A stretch of 49,030 bases of DNA, taken from assembly GCA_000806155.1 (NCBI GenBank), contig JWKX01000005.1, forward strand, positions 1 to 49,030, read 5' to 3'. The notes under the pieces are model-generated. The model saw nothing but the letters and a program-made list of their open reading frames with translations, did no database searches and was not told the DNA's origin. This DNA comes from an archaeon GW2011_AR18. Its GTDB lineage: Archaea; Nanobdellota; Nanobdellia; SCGC-AAA011-G17; GW2011-AR18. The translations under genes were made by a program, and so were the position numbers. Below, one piece after another: positions 1,331-47,524 of this stretch; position 1 is the first letter of the stretch; every line of letters begins with the position of its first letter.

Positions 1331-2314
1331 ATGACACATCCATATCTTATTGAAATACAACCTAATGAATTTGGATTTGTTGGAGAACATCCTTCCATAA
1401 AACACTTATGTAAAATTATCGAACATCTAGCTTCTTCTGATGCAAGTGTGAATATACAAGGGGAGAGCGGGACAGGAAAAGAGTTTACAGCAAGAGCTTT
1501 ACATGATTATAGTTTTAGAAAAGAGAATCTATTTATTGCTTCTAATTGTGGTGTTTTTACTGAAAGTCTACTTGAAGCTGAACTGTTTGGAGCTGAAAAA
1601 GGGAGAGCTACAGGTGTAGACGCTTATCCTGGATTATTAGAACAGGCTCATAATGGAACTTTATTCTTAGATGAGATTACTGAGATGCCTCCTAGAGTGC
1701 AAGTTGCACTATTAAGAGCTTTACAGGAAAGGAAAATTGTAAGAATTGGAGGAGTTGCTTCAAAACCAAGAGATACAAACTTTAGACTTGTCACTGCTTC
1801 AAGCAGAAAACTAGAGGGATTATTAAGAGAGGATTTCTATTATAGAATTGTTCAGGTTCCTATACAAGTTCCGTCATTAAGAGATAGAGGTAGTGATATT
1901 GAATTATTATCTAAGTACTTCTGTGGAAAAGAATCTGAAAAAAGTGGAAAAGAATTTTATCTTTATGGGGATGCTATTAACACATTGAGTAATTACCATT
2001 GGCCTGGAAATATAAGACAATTAGAAAATTCTATAATAAGAGCCTGCGCATTATATGGTGTTGATGAAGAAGATAAGGATAATATATTATATACTAGACA
2101 TTTTGAATTTTTAAATGAAGAAAATTTTAACGCTGATAATTCTTTAAATGGCAGAAGTGATTTGGAAAAGGGCCTTATAATTGAGAATTTAAAAATATTT
2201 TCTGGCAATATCAGCGAAACTGCTAAAACCTTAGGCCTGCCTAGATCTGTTCTTCATTATAAATTAAAAAAATATAAAATAGATATTAATGATTATAGGC
2301 CTAATAGTGATTAA
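1331..2314 (+). CDS. NtrC-like AAA+ transcriptional regulator with degenerate GAFTGA motif
   Basis: 327 aa resembling bacterial enhancer-binding proteins without a receiver domain. Visible: Walker A GESGTGKE (44-51), the ELFGAEKG helix (84-91), Walker B LFLDE (111-115), arginine-finger region LREDFYYRI (165-173), sensor II WPGNIRQLEN (224-233), and a Fis-type helix-turn-helix at about 292-317 (ISETAKTLGLPRSVLHYKL). The loop that normally reads GAFTGA and contacts sigma-54 is GRATGV (91-96): the Phe is lost. Archaea lack sigma-54, so a sigma-54 role is unlikely; TyrR is a bacterial example of a GAFTGA-less, sigma-70-acting relative. Base composition and the leaderless TATA promoter match neighbouring genes, which argues against contamination. 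The 3' end overlaps the next, convergent gene by 4 bp. Targets unknown. Confidence 0.85.
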   Translation: MTHPYLIEIQPNEFGFVGEHPSIKHLCKIIEHLASSDASVNIQGESGTGKEFTARALHDYSFRKENLFIASNCGVFTESLLEAELFGAEKGRATGVDAYPGLLEQAHNGTLFLDEITEMPPRVQVALLRALQERKIVRIGGVASKPRDTNFRLVTASSRKLEGLLREDFYYRIVQVPIQVPSLRDRGSDIELLSKYFCGKESEKSGKEFYLYGDAINTLSNYHWPGNIRQLENSIIRACALYGVDEEDKDNILYTRHFEFLNEENFNADNSLNGRSDLEKGLIIENLKIFSGNISETAKTLGLPRSVLHYKLKKYKIDINDYRPNSD

Positions 2315-8341: not shown

Positions 8342-8878
8342 TTATTTTAAATTATATGTTTCTAAAAGTTCATATCTAGGACCGTCTTTAGATAAAATGC
8401 TCCTGTAAAGTTTAAAGTTAACAACTTTTGATTTTAGTTTTTCAATATTTATATCAATAGAACCTAAAAATTCTTTTTTATCCTTAATAGATTTAATCCT
8501 GCCAATAGTAATATGAGATTTAAATTTCAATTCCTGCTTACCATAACCTAAAAGTGATTCATCAACAAGTCTTTGAAGTTCTTTAATCTTATCTTCTGGT
8601 TCTAGACCAATCCATAAGATCTTAGGATCATATTCATTAGGAAAAATACCAATAGAATTAATATTTAACGTGAACTTTTTCATTTTTACTTCTGAGAGAA
8701 TTTTTTTAATTTCAACTAATTGCTGTTCCTTAATCTCACCAAGAAATTTTAATGTAAGATGAAGATTCCTTTTAGCAACAAAATTTATTTTAATATTAGT
8801 GGATCTCAGTTTTCTCTGTAATTCATATACATAATCCTTAACAGAATCATCAAGATCTACAGCAATGAATATTCTCAT
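8342..8878 (-). CDS. thpR: RNA 2',3'-cyclic phosphodiesterase (2H family)
   Basis: 178 aa, the usual length. Members hydrolyse 2',3'-cyclic phosphate RNA ends to 2'-phosphate and show reversible 2'-5' RNA ligase activity in vitro. Both catalytic HxTx motifs are present: HLTL (40-43) and HITI (122-125). The N-terminus MRIFIAVDL is typical. Biological substrate in archaea is uncertain; tRNA half processing is a plausible role from the family. Confidence 0.93.
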   Translation of the reverse strand: MRIFIAVDLDDSVKDYVYELQRKLRSTNIKINFVAKRNLHLTLKFLGEIKEQQLVEIKKILSEVKMKKFTLNINSIGIFPNEYDPKILWIGLEPEDKIKELQRLVDESLLGYGKQELKFKSHITIGRIKSIKDKKEFLGSIDINIEKLKSKVVNFKLYRSILSKDGPRYELLETYNLK

Positions 8879-10118: not shown

Positions 10119-10781
10119 ATGCAAAGTGAATTACTAGTATTAAAGGATGATGAAGCATTCATACCAACAGATGATAGAGGAAATGGATTAATATTACAAA
10201 CACATGAATTACAAATTAATGGAAGAGCATTAGTTTGTGTTAATCAGTATCAAGCAATAAGAACAGCACAAAAACTTGGATGGGATGTGATGTCATCTGC
10301 TGAATATAATTATACTTACTCTTATGCAAGAGAACATCAAGAAGACGAGAGATTAAGAAGATATTATGAAAGCTTAACTTCAAAAATGAAATTTGCAAGA
10401 TTTAATAAAACACAAGTTCACAATCTAAACGGTAATACTCCATTAGTTGTTAATGTTTCTAAAGTTCATGATGAATTTGATTTAGCGATGGGTTATGAAA
10501 AAGAGATTATACCTGTAAGTTGGCTTCCTAAAAAAGATGGATATATTCAGGAATTTGATGAGAGAACAGGATTACCAAAAAGTGTTGGACAAACACCAGT
10601 TCCGGAATTAAGTAATAGTTACTTTTATATTGATCCTAAAATAAATACTCTTGCTGTCATTCGTAACAGGGGCTCCGGGTTGGACCTTAATCTTGACTGG
10701 ACTCCTGCCAATTTTAACGATGTGCTCGGGGTAAGCGTCGCAAAAAAATTTACAGCAGAAAGATTAGAAGAAAAATTCTAG
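10119..10781 (+). CDS. DGR target 1: C-type-lectin-like variable protein
   Basis: 220 aa, no signal peptide or membrane segment. Residues 180-208 carry the C-terminal signature of DGR variable proteins: VIRNRGSGLDLNL, then P, then GV about ten residues later. It is a variant of the CLec pattern with R..GS near its start and G[FV]R near its end. The coding segment (10656-10742) is about 53% GC in an AT-rich gene and aligns without gaps to the same segment of the gene at 27337. The region around residues 60-110 resembles the helical part of a sulfatase-modifying-factor/CLec fold. Inference: mutagenic retrohoming rewrites this ligand-binding face. The rest of the protein is not similar to target 2, so the two probably bind with different scaffolds. 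Confidence 0.75.
   Translation: MQSELLVLKDDEAFIPTDDRGNGLILQTHELQINGRALVCVNQYQAIRTAQKLGWDVMSSAEYNYTYSYAREHQEDERLRRYYESLTSKMKFARFNKTQVHNLNGNTPLVVNVSKVHDEFDLAMGYEKEIIPVSWLPKKDGYIQEFDERTGLPKSVGQTPVPELSNSYFYIDPKINTLAVIRNRGSGLDLNLDWTPANFNDVLGVSVAKKFTAERLEEKF
10656..10742 (+). repeat. DGR variable repeat 1 (VR1)
   Basis: 87 bp at the 3' end of target gene 1, pairing with 27904-27990. By hand count 56 of 87 positions match. Of the 31 differences 24 are at codon positions 1 or 2, and in 17 one of the two copies has A. This is expected when both derive from A-rich template codons (AAY type) by adenine-directed mutagenesis. Fixed blocks include CGTAAC, TCC, CTT-x3-CTT and GTA. The template repeat was not found in the window. 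Confidence 0.72.
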
Positions 10782-10825
10782 TTATATAATATTATAACCT
10801 ATTTTTACAAAAAATCTAGAAAACT

Positions 10826-27336: not shown

Positions 27337-28029
27337 ATGAGAATATTAGATACTAATCAATTTGAAGTCGGATATGTATTTGAATCAGAGGATATTAAAC
27401 AAGTTATTACAGATGAATATGTTGAGTTTCTAAAAAAAGCAGGATATGTTAATTTAGCTGAGAAACCAAGATTATTTGTAGCAAGAGAATTATTAAGACT
27501 AGATGAAGAAGTTGAGAGAGTATCAAAAGATTTAGGTACTGATGATGAAAGAAGAATTTTTGGAATAAACCAAGAAAATGCAAGAGAACTTGTAAATAGA
27601 TTAGATGGGAATTTATTACCAAATGGATTCATGAGAAGATTGGTTATACCAAAAATAGAATATCTAGCAGGACAAGGAATAAAACAGGCAAAAATTACTT
27701 ATAATGAAATGGAAGAAATAGGAGAATTTTTAACTGATAGAATCATAAATAGGTCACAAGTAAGAATTGGAAATGAAGGAAAAATGTTAACACTACCAGA
27801 AGGATATAAAAGATTCGATAAAGTAAATGATTTTGGATACCCAACAACTTTTACTAGTGAAGGAAGACATGGATACTATGGTCCTACTCAAGATGAAAAT
27901 ATTGTCACTCGTAACGGGGACTCCGCATTGAGCCTTAGTCTTAGTGGGATTCCTCCGTGTACTAGTCGTATGATTGGTGTACGTTACGCAAAATTCTTCA
28001 AAGAAGACAGAGAATTAAAAAGAAAATAA
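27337..28029 (+). CDS. DGR target 2: C-type-lectin-like variable protein
   Basis: 230 aa, no signal or membrane segment. Residues 190-218 (27904-27990) form the variable segment: VTRNGDSALSLSL, P, then IGVRYA, matching the C-terminal CLec pattern of DGR variable proteins (R..GS-like start, G[FV]R end). The segment aligns gap-free with that of the gene at 10119 while the rest of the two proteins differs. An N-terminal part rich in helices (EYVEFLKKAGYV, ENARELVNRLDG) may be an oligomerisation or partner domain. It sits between secY and hicBA, where adk often lies in archaea. Inference: cytoplasmic or intracellularly retained binder whose ligand is retargeted by a retroelement encoded elsewhere. 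Confidence 0.75.
   Translation: MRILDTNQFEVGYVFESEDIKQVITDEYVEFLKKAGYVNLAEKPRLFVARELLRLDEEVERVSKDLGTDDERRIFGINQENARELVNRLDGNLLPNGFMRRLVIPKIEYLAGQGIKQAKITYNEMEEIGEFLTDRIINRSQVRIGNEGKMLTLPEGYKRFDKVNDFGYPTTFTSEGRHGYYGPTQDENIVTRNGDSALSLSLSGIPPCTSRMIGVRYAKFFKEDRELKRK
27904..27990 (+). repeat. DGR variable repeat 2 (VR2)
   Basis: 87 bp, about 51% GC, aligned with VR1 (10656-10742) without gaps. Uses CGT, GGG, TCC and CTT codons uncommon in the surrounding genes. Several remaining C/T differences at third positions suggest that VR1 and VR2 may copy two slightly different templates, or one template that has drifted. Homology stops near both ends, as expected for a retrohoming tract. Confidence 0.72.
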
Positions 28030-28030
28030 A

Positions 28031-28258
28031 TTATAATAATTTAATCAAATCTTCTAAACTTAAACCAGCCTGATTCATAATACTCTTTAAAGTTCCCTTA
28101 GCAAGTTCATCATGCAAAGGAACAGGAATTGTAATCTTGCTATTATATAATTGTTTAACTAATATAGCATGACTTCCATGTGTTCTAATATGTATAAAAC
28201 CTATTTTATGAAGAATTTTAACAATATCTTTACCTGATACTATTGGAAGCTTTGGCAT
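28031..28258 (-). CDS. hicA: HicA-family mRNA interferase toxin
   Basis: 75 aa. HicA toxins cleave mRNA using a dsRBD-like fold. The family pattern is clear: GKDIVKILHKIGF, then RTHGSHAILVK with the catalytic His at about 30, and KGTLKSIMNQAGLSLEDLI. It lies downstream of hicB with a 29-bp overlap, so antitoxin is made first. Its stop lies 1 bp from the convergent end of DGR target 2. Confidence 0.88.
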   Translation of the reverse strand: MPKLPIVSGKDIVKILHKIGFIHIRTHGSHAILVKQLYNSKITIPVPLHDELAKGTLKSIMNQAGLSLEDLIKLL

Positions 28259-28532
28259 TTTTAGTCACCTCAATAACAGAGAATAATGGAGGTTCTCCGC
28301 TATATAATTCATCAAACTTTTCTGGCTGTTCCTCTAGATAAAGTTCAATAGCTTCCTTAATATTATTGATTGCTTCTTCTGTAGATTTTCCCTGACTAGC
28401 TATATTTAGGCTAGGACAATTTGCAACAAAAATCAGCTTATTGTCACTAAGCTTCTCTTTTTTTATTACAATTTCTACAAAATATTTCTTATCTTTCATA
28501 GATAAATAATATTCTTTAAAGCTATTAAACAT
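28230..28532 (-). CDS. hicB: HicB-family antitoxin
   Basis: 100 aa, or 89 aa if the ATG at 28499 is used (MKDKKYFVEIVIKKE, which is where the conserved domain starts). Partial RNase-H-like HicB fold: FVANCPSLNIASQGKSTEEAINNIKEAIELYLEE. There is no C-terminal DNA-binding domain, so autoregulation would need another factor. Neutralises the HicA encoded by the next gene. Confidence 0.85.
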   Translation of the reverse strand: MFNSFKEYYLSMKDKKYFVEIVIKKEKLSDNKLIFVANCPSLNIASQGKSTEEAINNIKEAIELYLEEQPEKFDELYSGEPPLFSVIEVTKNAKASNSIR

Positions 28533-28608: not shown

Positions 28609-28845
28609 TTATATTAAACTCATCTCAATCTTGATAGGAAGTTTAAATTCTATAATCTCATTAATTCCTTTAGCTCTCTTTTTAAAGTTTAAAATCCCAA
28701 CACTCTTAACTTCCTGAGTTTTTTCATCTTTTCTTATAAAAATTCCCGGTTTAATTTCAATAGATATTGAATCTGAAGGTGTACCTACTGAAATCTCCAA
28801 AAAATCACTTTCTTCATCCAAATAAACTCTCATTTCTTCTTTCAT
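28609..28845 (-). CDS. DUF2283 protein (antitoxin-like)
   Basis: 78 aa. MRVYLDEESDFLEISVGTPS at the start, then GIFIRKDEKTQEVKSVGILN, is the DUF2283 pattern (short beta-rich proteins with an initial YDEEADVLYI-like strand). Such proteins commonly sit beside DUF4258 or BECR-type toxins and are thought to be antitoxins, though often seen alone. It lies 76 bp upstream of hicBA on the same strand. Two further DUF2283 genes are at 46926 and 47300. Confidence 0.75.
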   Translation of the reverse strand: MKEEMRVYLDEESDFLEISVGTPSDSISIEIKPGIFIRKDEKTQEVKSVGILNFKKRAKGINEIIEFKLPIKIEMSLI

Positions 28846-46602: not shown

Positions 46603-46929
46603 TTGAATAAAAATTCTCGAAAATCCGAAAGATTTACGGAAAATTCTACTAAAGAGAATTTGGATTTTATATTTAATGATAAACTAGGAAGAACACTAAT
46701 CTTACCTCACGAAAGAATAAAACATATCTATAAACATCCAGAAATGCAGAATAAACTATATTTAGTTGAAATAACTATAAAAGAAACAGATTTTATAGAA
46801 GAAGATTTAAATAGAAGCAAAATAATATACTACTATAAATATTTTAAAGAATATAGAAGAGATGTTATGGTTGTTGTTAAGATTAATAGTCATGGGAAAA
46901 TATTAACTGCTTACATGGTGGAAAAATGA
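46603..46929 (+). CDS. BECR-fold nuclease-like protein (possible toxin)
   Basis: Up to 108 aa. GRTLILPHERIKHIYKHPEM followed by VEITIKETDFI, and KYFKEYRRDVMVVVKIN, is the pattern of the barnase-EndoU-ColicinE5/RelE-like (PBECR2/DUF4258-type) RNases; the HIxxHPE His residues are candidate catalytic groups. It is coupled (ATGA overlap) to a DUF2283 gene, the usual antitoxin-like partner. No ATG opens the frame: TTG at 46603 or 46660; the TATA box near 46585-46593 puts transcription start near 46615, favouring 46660. Toxin activity is inferred. Confidence 0.6.
   Translation: MNKNSRKSERFTENSTKENLDFIFNDKLGRTLILPHERIKHIYKHPEMQNKLYLVEITIKETDFIEEDLNRSKIIYYYKYFKEYRRDVMVVVKINSHGKILTAYMVEK
46613..46646 (+). 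repeat. Dispersed intergenic motif, copy 6
   Basis: ATCCGAAAGATTTACGGAAA at about 46623-46642: a palindromic variant in which TCCG pairs with CGGA. It overlaps the most upstream possible start of the BECR-like gene, another reason to prefer the later TTG. Confidence 0.5.
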
Positions 46930-47147
46930 AAAATAAAATAATATTATATTATGATGAAGAAGGAGATTATTTAGAATTAAGTATAGGGAAAATTGAAAAA
47001 GGATATTTTAAAAAAATTAAGAAAGACTGTTTTAAGAGAATAGATGAAAAAACTGGAAAGGTTGTTGGGTATACAATCTTTAATTTTACAAAGAAAGATG
47101 GATTTAACGAAATAGAATTACCATTAACAAAAGAAATTGCTGGATGA
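46926..47147 (+). CDS. DUF2283 protein 2 (antitoxin-like)
   Basis: 73 aa. Begins MKNKIILYYDEEGDYLELSI and ends VVGYTIFNF, then NEIELPLTKE: DUF2283. Coupled to the BECR-like gene by an ATGA overlap. It is close to the third copy at 47300 (same start and ending), indicating duplication. Confidence 0.75.
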   Translation: MKNKIILYYDEEGDYLELSIGKIEKGYFKKIKKDCFKRIDEKTGKVVGYTIFNFTKKDGFNEIELPLTKEIAG

Positions 47148-47150
47148 AAA

Positions 47151-47303
47151 ATGGAAAAATCAAAGATTTCAAAAGAAATGAAAAAACATAATATCAGCGA
47201 AAAAGATATGAAGAAACATAATATAACTCCAGATGATATAAAAAAATTTAAAAAATCAATAAAAGGATATGAAAAATTGTTAGAAGCAATTGGAAGATTA
47301 TGA
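47151..47303 (+). CDS. Small lysine-rich helical protein, 50 aa
   Basis: ATG at 47151, stop TGA overlapping the next ATG. Contains a tandem repeat (MKKHNISEKD, MKKHNITPDD) and a final helix YEKLLEAIGRL. Its coupled place between the two DUF2283 genes argues for translation. Possibly a third component of the toxin-antitoxin module. Confidence 0.6.
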   Translation: MEKSKISKEMKKHNISEKDMKKHNITPDDIKKFKKSIKGYEKLLEAIGRL

Positions 47304-47524
47304 AAAATAAAAAAATGATAATACATTATGATGAAGAAGGAGATTATTTAGAAATAACCTTAAAAAAATCTAAAGATACATATTTTAATGAATTAAAAAA
47401 AGATTGTGCACAAATAATAGATCAAAAGTCTGGTGAAATTGTTGGTTATGCTGTATTTAATTTTAGAAAAAGAAAAAATTCTATTGACGTAGAGTTTCCA
47501 ATAACAAAAGAAATGGTTGCCTAA
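47300..47524 (+). CDS. DUF2283 protein 3 (antitoxin-like)
   Basis: 74 aa. MKNKKMIIHYDEEGDYLEIT start and IVGYAVFNFRKR ending: DUF2283, a diverged duplicate of the copy at 46926. Last gene of the four-gene operon. Ends 1 bp from the convergent THUMP methyltransferase gene. Confidence 0.75.
   Translation: MKNKKMIIHYDEEGDYLEITLKKSKDTYFNELKKDCAQIIDQKSGEIVGYAVFNFRKRKNSIDVEFPITKEMVA

Follow-up and report, generated by a model that had tools for sequence, protein, structure and literature searches.

Two genes in the window, the whole 49,030-nt stretch of DNA analysed here, are very probably targets of a diversity-generating retroelement (DGR), either orphaned or served from a distance, with variable regions (VRs) as their last approximately 90 bp. 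The window is the entire contig C5 of a 17-contig assembly of 822,540 bp that is 90% complete. Target gene 1 (10119..10781, + strand) encodes a protein of 220 amino acids that combines an N-terminal body of its own with a C-terminal domain matched by the family profile described below, and it carries VR1 at 10656..10742 (+). Target gene 2 (27337..28029, +), which lies approximately 30 bp downstream of secY, encodes 230 amino acids, has full-length homologues in three other genomes and carries VR2 at 27904..27990 (+). Both VRs, supported by alignment, sequence patterns and the column and codon tests given below, occupy a C-terminal position at the 3′ end of their genes and share the reading frame, which is intact in both genes. 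Together with their relatives, the two genes constitute an archaeal DGR target subfamily in orphan form, which is new here; Pfam, NCBIfam and PHROGs, the protein-family libraries searched, hold no family for either protein.

The VR1–VR2 alignment, when recomputed, contained no gaps and 31 mismatches in 87 positions, distributed over codon positions 1, 2 and 3 as 12, 12 and 7. This exactly reproduced the hand counts of the original prediction (gap-free, 31 of 87 differences, 24 of the 31 at codon positions 1 and 2), as well as its count of 17 mismatches with A in one copy and its description of VR1 as a segment of about 53% GC in an AT-rich gene. The measured GC contents were 52.9% for VR1 and 50.6% for VR2, against 30.4% and 28.9% for the bodies of genes 1 and 2 and 29.9% for the window. 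A blastn search of the window and the ends of all other contigs returned the pair at 65.6% identity over 90 bp (E 2e-7), a match beyond chance. No other stretch of the window comes near this similarity, and searches with a DNA pattern and a protein profile detected no copy besides VR1 and VR2 in the whole assembly of 822,540 bp.

Comparison with other VRs further delineated candidate retrohoming (IMH-like) 3′ ends at 10731..10745 (+; GTAAGCGTCGCAAAA) in VR1 and at 27979..27993 (+; GTACGTTACGCAAAA) in VR2, the latter having the family form and the former deviating from it (GTACGTnnCGCAAAA). AT-rich inverted repeats lie at the stop codons of gene 1 (10781..10798) and gene 2 (28027..28043); they might form post-VR hairpins or might be due to chance. 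Target gene 2 is adjoined at 28031-28532 (−) by a HicA toxin gene (PF07927, E 6e-18) and its weakly HicB-like partner, a pair that sits between secY and the EMC3/L34e genes in a ribosomal-protein cluster.

Relatives were sought with a profile of both C-termini and with the gene 2 protein, which revealed homologues that end in a 3′ segment of this type in three more archaeal genomes. G032 (groundwater archaeon nzgw40, contigs JAHFKB) has four of them, G057, a Woesearchaeota bin from groundwater, has three, and G036 has two, of which one is broken. All genomes concerned are fragmentary (59–98% complete). Gene 2 is 32–37% identical to its homologues. The body of gene 1 is unlike that family, and its C-terminus matches the same domain; its one distant relative, in genome G175, has a lectin-like C-terminus without a VR-type segment, and no other well-matched homologue of this body was found. 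The viral contigs searched contained no detectable relative of the target protein family.

The principal evidence that the window-type proteins are DGR targets is their profile–profile homology to targets that are linked to reverse transcriptases (RTs). An RVT_1 protein is present in 46 of 102 genomes of the order; nearly all RT loci examined there belong to the DGR type, as their PLGNLTSQ and YVDD motifs show, and many have adjacent template and variable repeats that differ mostly at A. The ten-sequence family profile also matched further proteins in their C-terminal domain, several of them adjoining DGR RTs (G006, G073, G081 and G030), and hhalign aligned the window-type family with the RT-linked targets at a probability of 98.2 (E 4.2e-14) over 160 columns including the VR. 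At G006, G073, G081 and G377, 150 of 150 mismatches between template and VR fell on a template A in 12 pair listings, which were chosen for all-A mismatches and count the G377 pairs once per orientation. The targets in these four genomes share with the window type a homologous C-terminal domain and an L...P......LGVR frame, align with it gap-free around the VR and have the same spectrum of A changing to G and T; unlike the window type, they lie next to an RT and a template, their variable residues are partly shifted to another register, and their bodies are of other kinds. A clean arrangement of one template with many targets was observed in G377 (L154, contig C36, 2841-9702), where one DGR with a single template (~8546-8631) is accompanied on the same contig by several VRs, all of whose mismatches lie at template A.

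The window-type VRs themselves carry the corresponding mutational signature. Nine gap-free VRs follow a common pattern, approximately CGT-NNC-NGG-NNC-TCY-NNR-TTG-NNC-YTK-NNY-YTK-NNY-NGG-NNN-CCT, in which alternate residues vary at codon positions 1 and 2 and the residues between them are nearly fixed; the contrast of 0.38 was reached in 0 of 20,000 permutations, in a test of an alternation noticed beforehand. The variable codons are of the AAY/AAR type with the third base kept, clearly so in the nine VRs and more weakly in the VR1–VR2 pair alone, and the third bases of codons 3 and 5 are C in 9 of 9 VRs. Variable positions of the nine VRs are occupied by A (57), G (54), T (12) and C (3), and template A in the RT-linked pairs is replaced by G (101), T (44) and C (5). 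Third bases are more alike in the VRs than in the bodies for most pairs tested, among them VR1 and VR2 (0.76 versus 0.49) and VR1 and a VR from another genus, G032-C15 (0.86 versus 0.54), the excess being absent between VR2 and G036 (0.52 versus 0.52). When diversity at third bases was divided by that at first and second bases, codons 1 to 14 of the VRs gave 0.72, below all 149 overlapping windows of the bodies (minimum 0.78), and GC content is 40–61% across the VRs versus 20–34% in the bodies.

When each pair in turn was left out, the differences within the G032 pairs fell on columns with A in the other VRs in 13 of 14 and 14 of 18 cases. The corresponding figure for VR1 and VR2 was 20 of 31 (p 0.027), which is weak for this pair alone because G columns yield the same p. 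The remaining 11 of 31 differences lie in columns where no other VR of the type has A, and among them are C/T changes at third positions and, close to the VR1 3′ end, an AGC in place of CGT. One template mutated at adenines alone would hardly account for both VRs, so that a single shared template finds no support and two templates or an old divergence would be needed. Either would be a natural explanation, because the four VRs of G032 appear to fall into two template classes.

Structural modelling gave a weak hint of a lectin-type target. AlphaFold gave a good model of protein 2 (pLDDT 87.8, pTM 0.87; weaker inside the VR) and a poor one of protein 1 (63.6). The best PDB hits of both models were mostly C-type lectins, at E above 0.2 and with modest TM-scores, and a sequence search of solved structures returned nothing credible for either protein. 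The models are thus suggestive of a C-type-lectin fold for both targets. Of the original prediction, the assignment as a DGR-type variable region is largely supported by the RT-linked homology with A-restricted template/VR pairs, the alternating AAY/AAR-like codons and the conserved third bases; the C-terminal CLec signature finds a counterpart in the lectins among the top fold hits, each of these hits being individually weak.

The original prediction had also reported neither an RT nor a template repeat, and this now extends to the 90%-complete assembly. Neither PF00078 nor a DGR-RT profile, which retrieves the RT of G036 at E 2e-187 but has this RT among the six sequences that make it up, found a DGR RT in the assembly, nor did tblastn at its contig ends; exact and mismatch DNA patterns likewise found no template in the assembly or at its contig ends. 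Template patterns (exact and with 3 mismatches) run against 102 relatives of the order and viral and genome collections matched VRs only or nothing. A DGR RT and a template were likewise not found in G032 and G057, both of which contain window-type VRs. G036 (98% complete) does have a DGR RT, at a contig end (L085, contig C14, 7124-8391), with a template of a different type (VNNNLNLNANWNNFGNSK), and its role as a source of the window-type VRs of G036 finds no support. An RT-like protein in G032, the relative bearing four window-type VRs, is of a non-DGR type, with RWLDD and no GxxxSQ (L081, contig C18, 9659-10619). Template-pattern matches in the viral contigs L198 and L199 look like chance, lying in low-complexity or unrelated context with no RT-like open reading frame.

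In the mechanism that we propose, the products of both genes would be DGR targets whose C-terminal domain is C-type-lectin-like. As homology and signature suggest, a DGR RT would have made errors at adenines while copying a template RNA, and the mutated cDNA would have replaced the VR by mutagenic retrohoming. By analogy with G032, each of the two VRs probably had its own template, the two templates being related. The RT/template cassette is neither beside the targets nor in the recovered assembly; the cassette that wrote them may lie in the missing ~10% or on another replicon, or may have been lost. Action in trans, which the original prediction proposed, would account for this absence no better than a fossil or a cassette that escaped assembly.

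Within the DGR-target reading, it is quite plausible, if short of an even chance, that an ancestral DGR wrote the VRs, that its RT and template have since been lost and that the genes now drift. No RT or template is present in the genome's own assembly, or found in G032 and G057, the VR1–VR2 differences outside A columns include the altered VR1 3′ end, and a homologue in G036 is broken; against this stand the two intact reading frames and the VR third bases that are still well conserved across genera, and the incompleteness of all these genomes. With a slightly smaller probability, the same cell may instead contain a full DGR, located in the ~10% that is missing from the assembly or on a contig left out of the bin. 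Template and variable repeats break assemblies, as the contig-end position of the G036 RT and template illustrates, and many genomes of the order have RTs of the DGR type; nevertheless, no RT or template fragment occurs at any contig end of the genome itself, and three genomes would have to lack the cassette simultaneously. It is improbable that a mobile or trans-acting cassette of a virus, plasmid or partner cell serves target-only archaea of different genera; this is hinted at because VR1 third bases are 86% like those of the other-genus VR (bodies 54%) and a DGR RT or template was found in neither genome.

The alternative to the DGR-target reading is that diversifying selection on ordinary paralogues shaped the two genes without any retroelement. 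The genome's own assembly offers no template for comparison, and the G175 relative of the gene 1 body has a lectin-like C-terminus without VR-type DNA. Selection alone does not explain the near-fixed third bases beside free A/G/T variation, the near-absence of C replacements, the jump in GC content or the homology to RT-linked VRs, and we consider this alternative very unlikely.

Orphan targets are already a known phenomenon, since multiple DGRs have been described in Nanoarchaeota together with ‘partial DGRs’ that have a target and a VR and no RT, for which fossilization and remote action were the two options offered (Paul et al. 2015, PMC4372165). The partial DGRs of the DUSEL4 Nanoarchaeota (target, VR and cis elements, no RT; PMC4372165) resemble the window genes, by description and not by sequence identity, in belonging to DPANN archaea, in bearing VRs on targets away from an RT, in adenine-type variation and in posing the same question of fossil or remote action; unlike the window genome, where none was found, DUSEL4 has complete DGRs at other loci of its genome. 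The solved structure of AvpA, a DGR variable protein of archaea, has a C-type-lectin fold (Handa et al. 2016, PMC5006420); AvpA resembles the window targets in its mostly AAY variable codons, in its short VR near the C-terminus and possibly in its lectin-type fold. It has 46 residues after the VR, whereas the window targets have about 12, and no solved chain matches the sequences of the window targets credibly. Archaeal targets without recognizable domains have been reported in a survey that missed remote targets, and VR-only targets escape such surveys because they start from the RT (Roux et al. 2021, PMC8144416). The three VR-only genomes in which no DGR RT was found (the window genome, G032 and G057) provide a test set for whether targets persist, are served remotely or fossilize.

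Elsewhere in the window, the gene at 1331-2314 (+) encodes an AAA+ protein (PF00158, E 1e-47) that resembles sigma-54 activators, carries a Fis-type HTH (PF02954) and has GRATGV at the position expected for the GAFTGA loop; archaea are not known to possess sigma-54. The segment at 46603-46929 (+) matches the PBECR2 nuclease family weakly and short of the cut-off (E 2e-4). It is adjoined by two small open reading frames (46926-47147 and 47300-47524), which are similar to one another and to a DUF2283-like open reading frame at 28609-28845.
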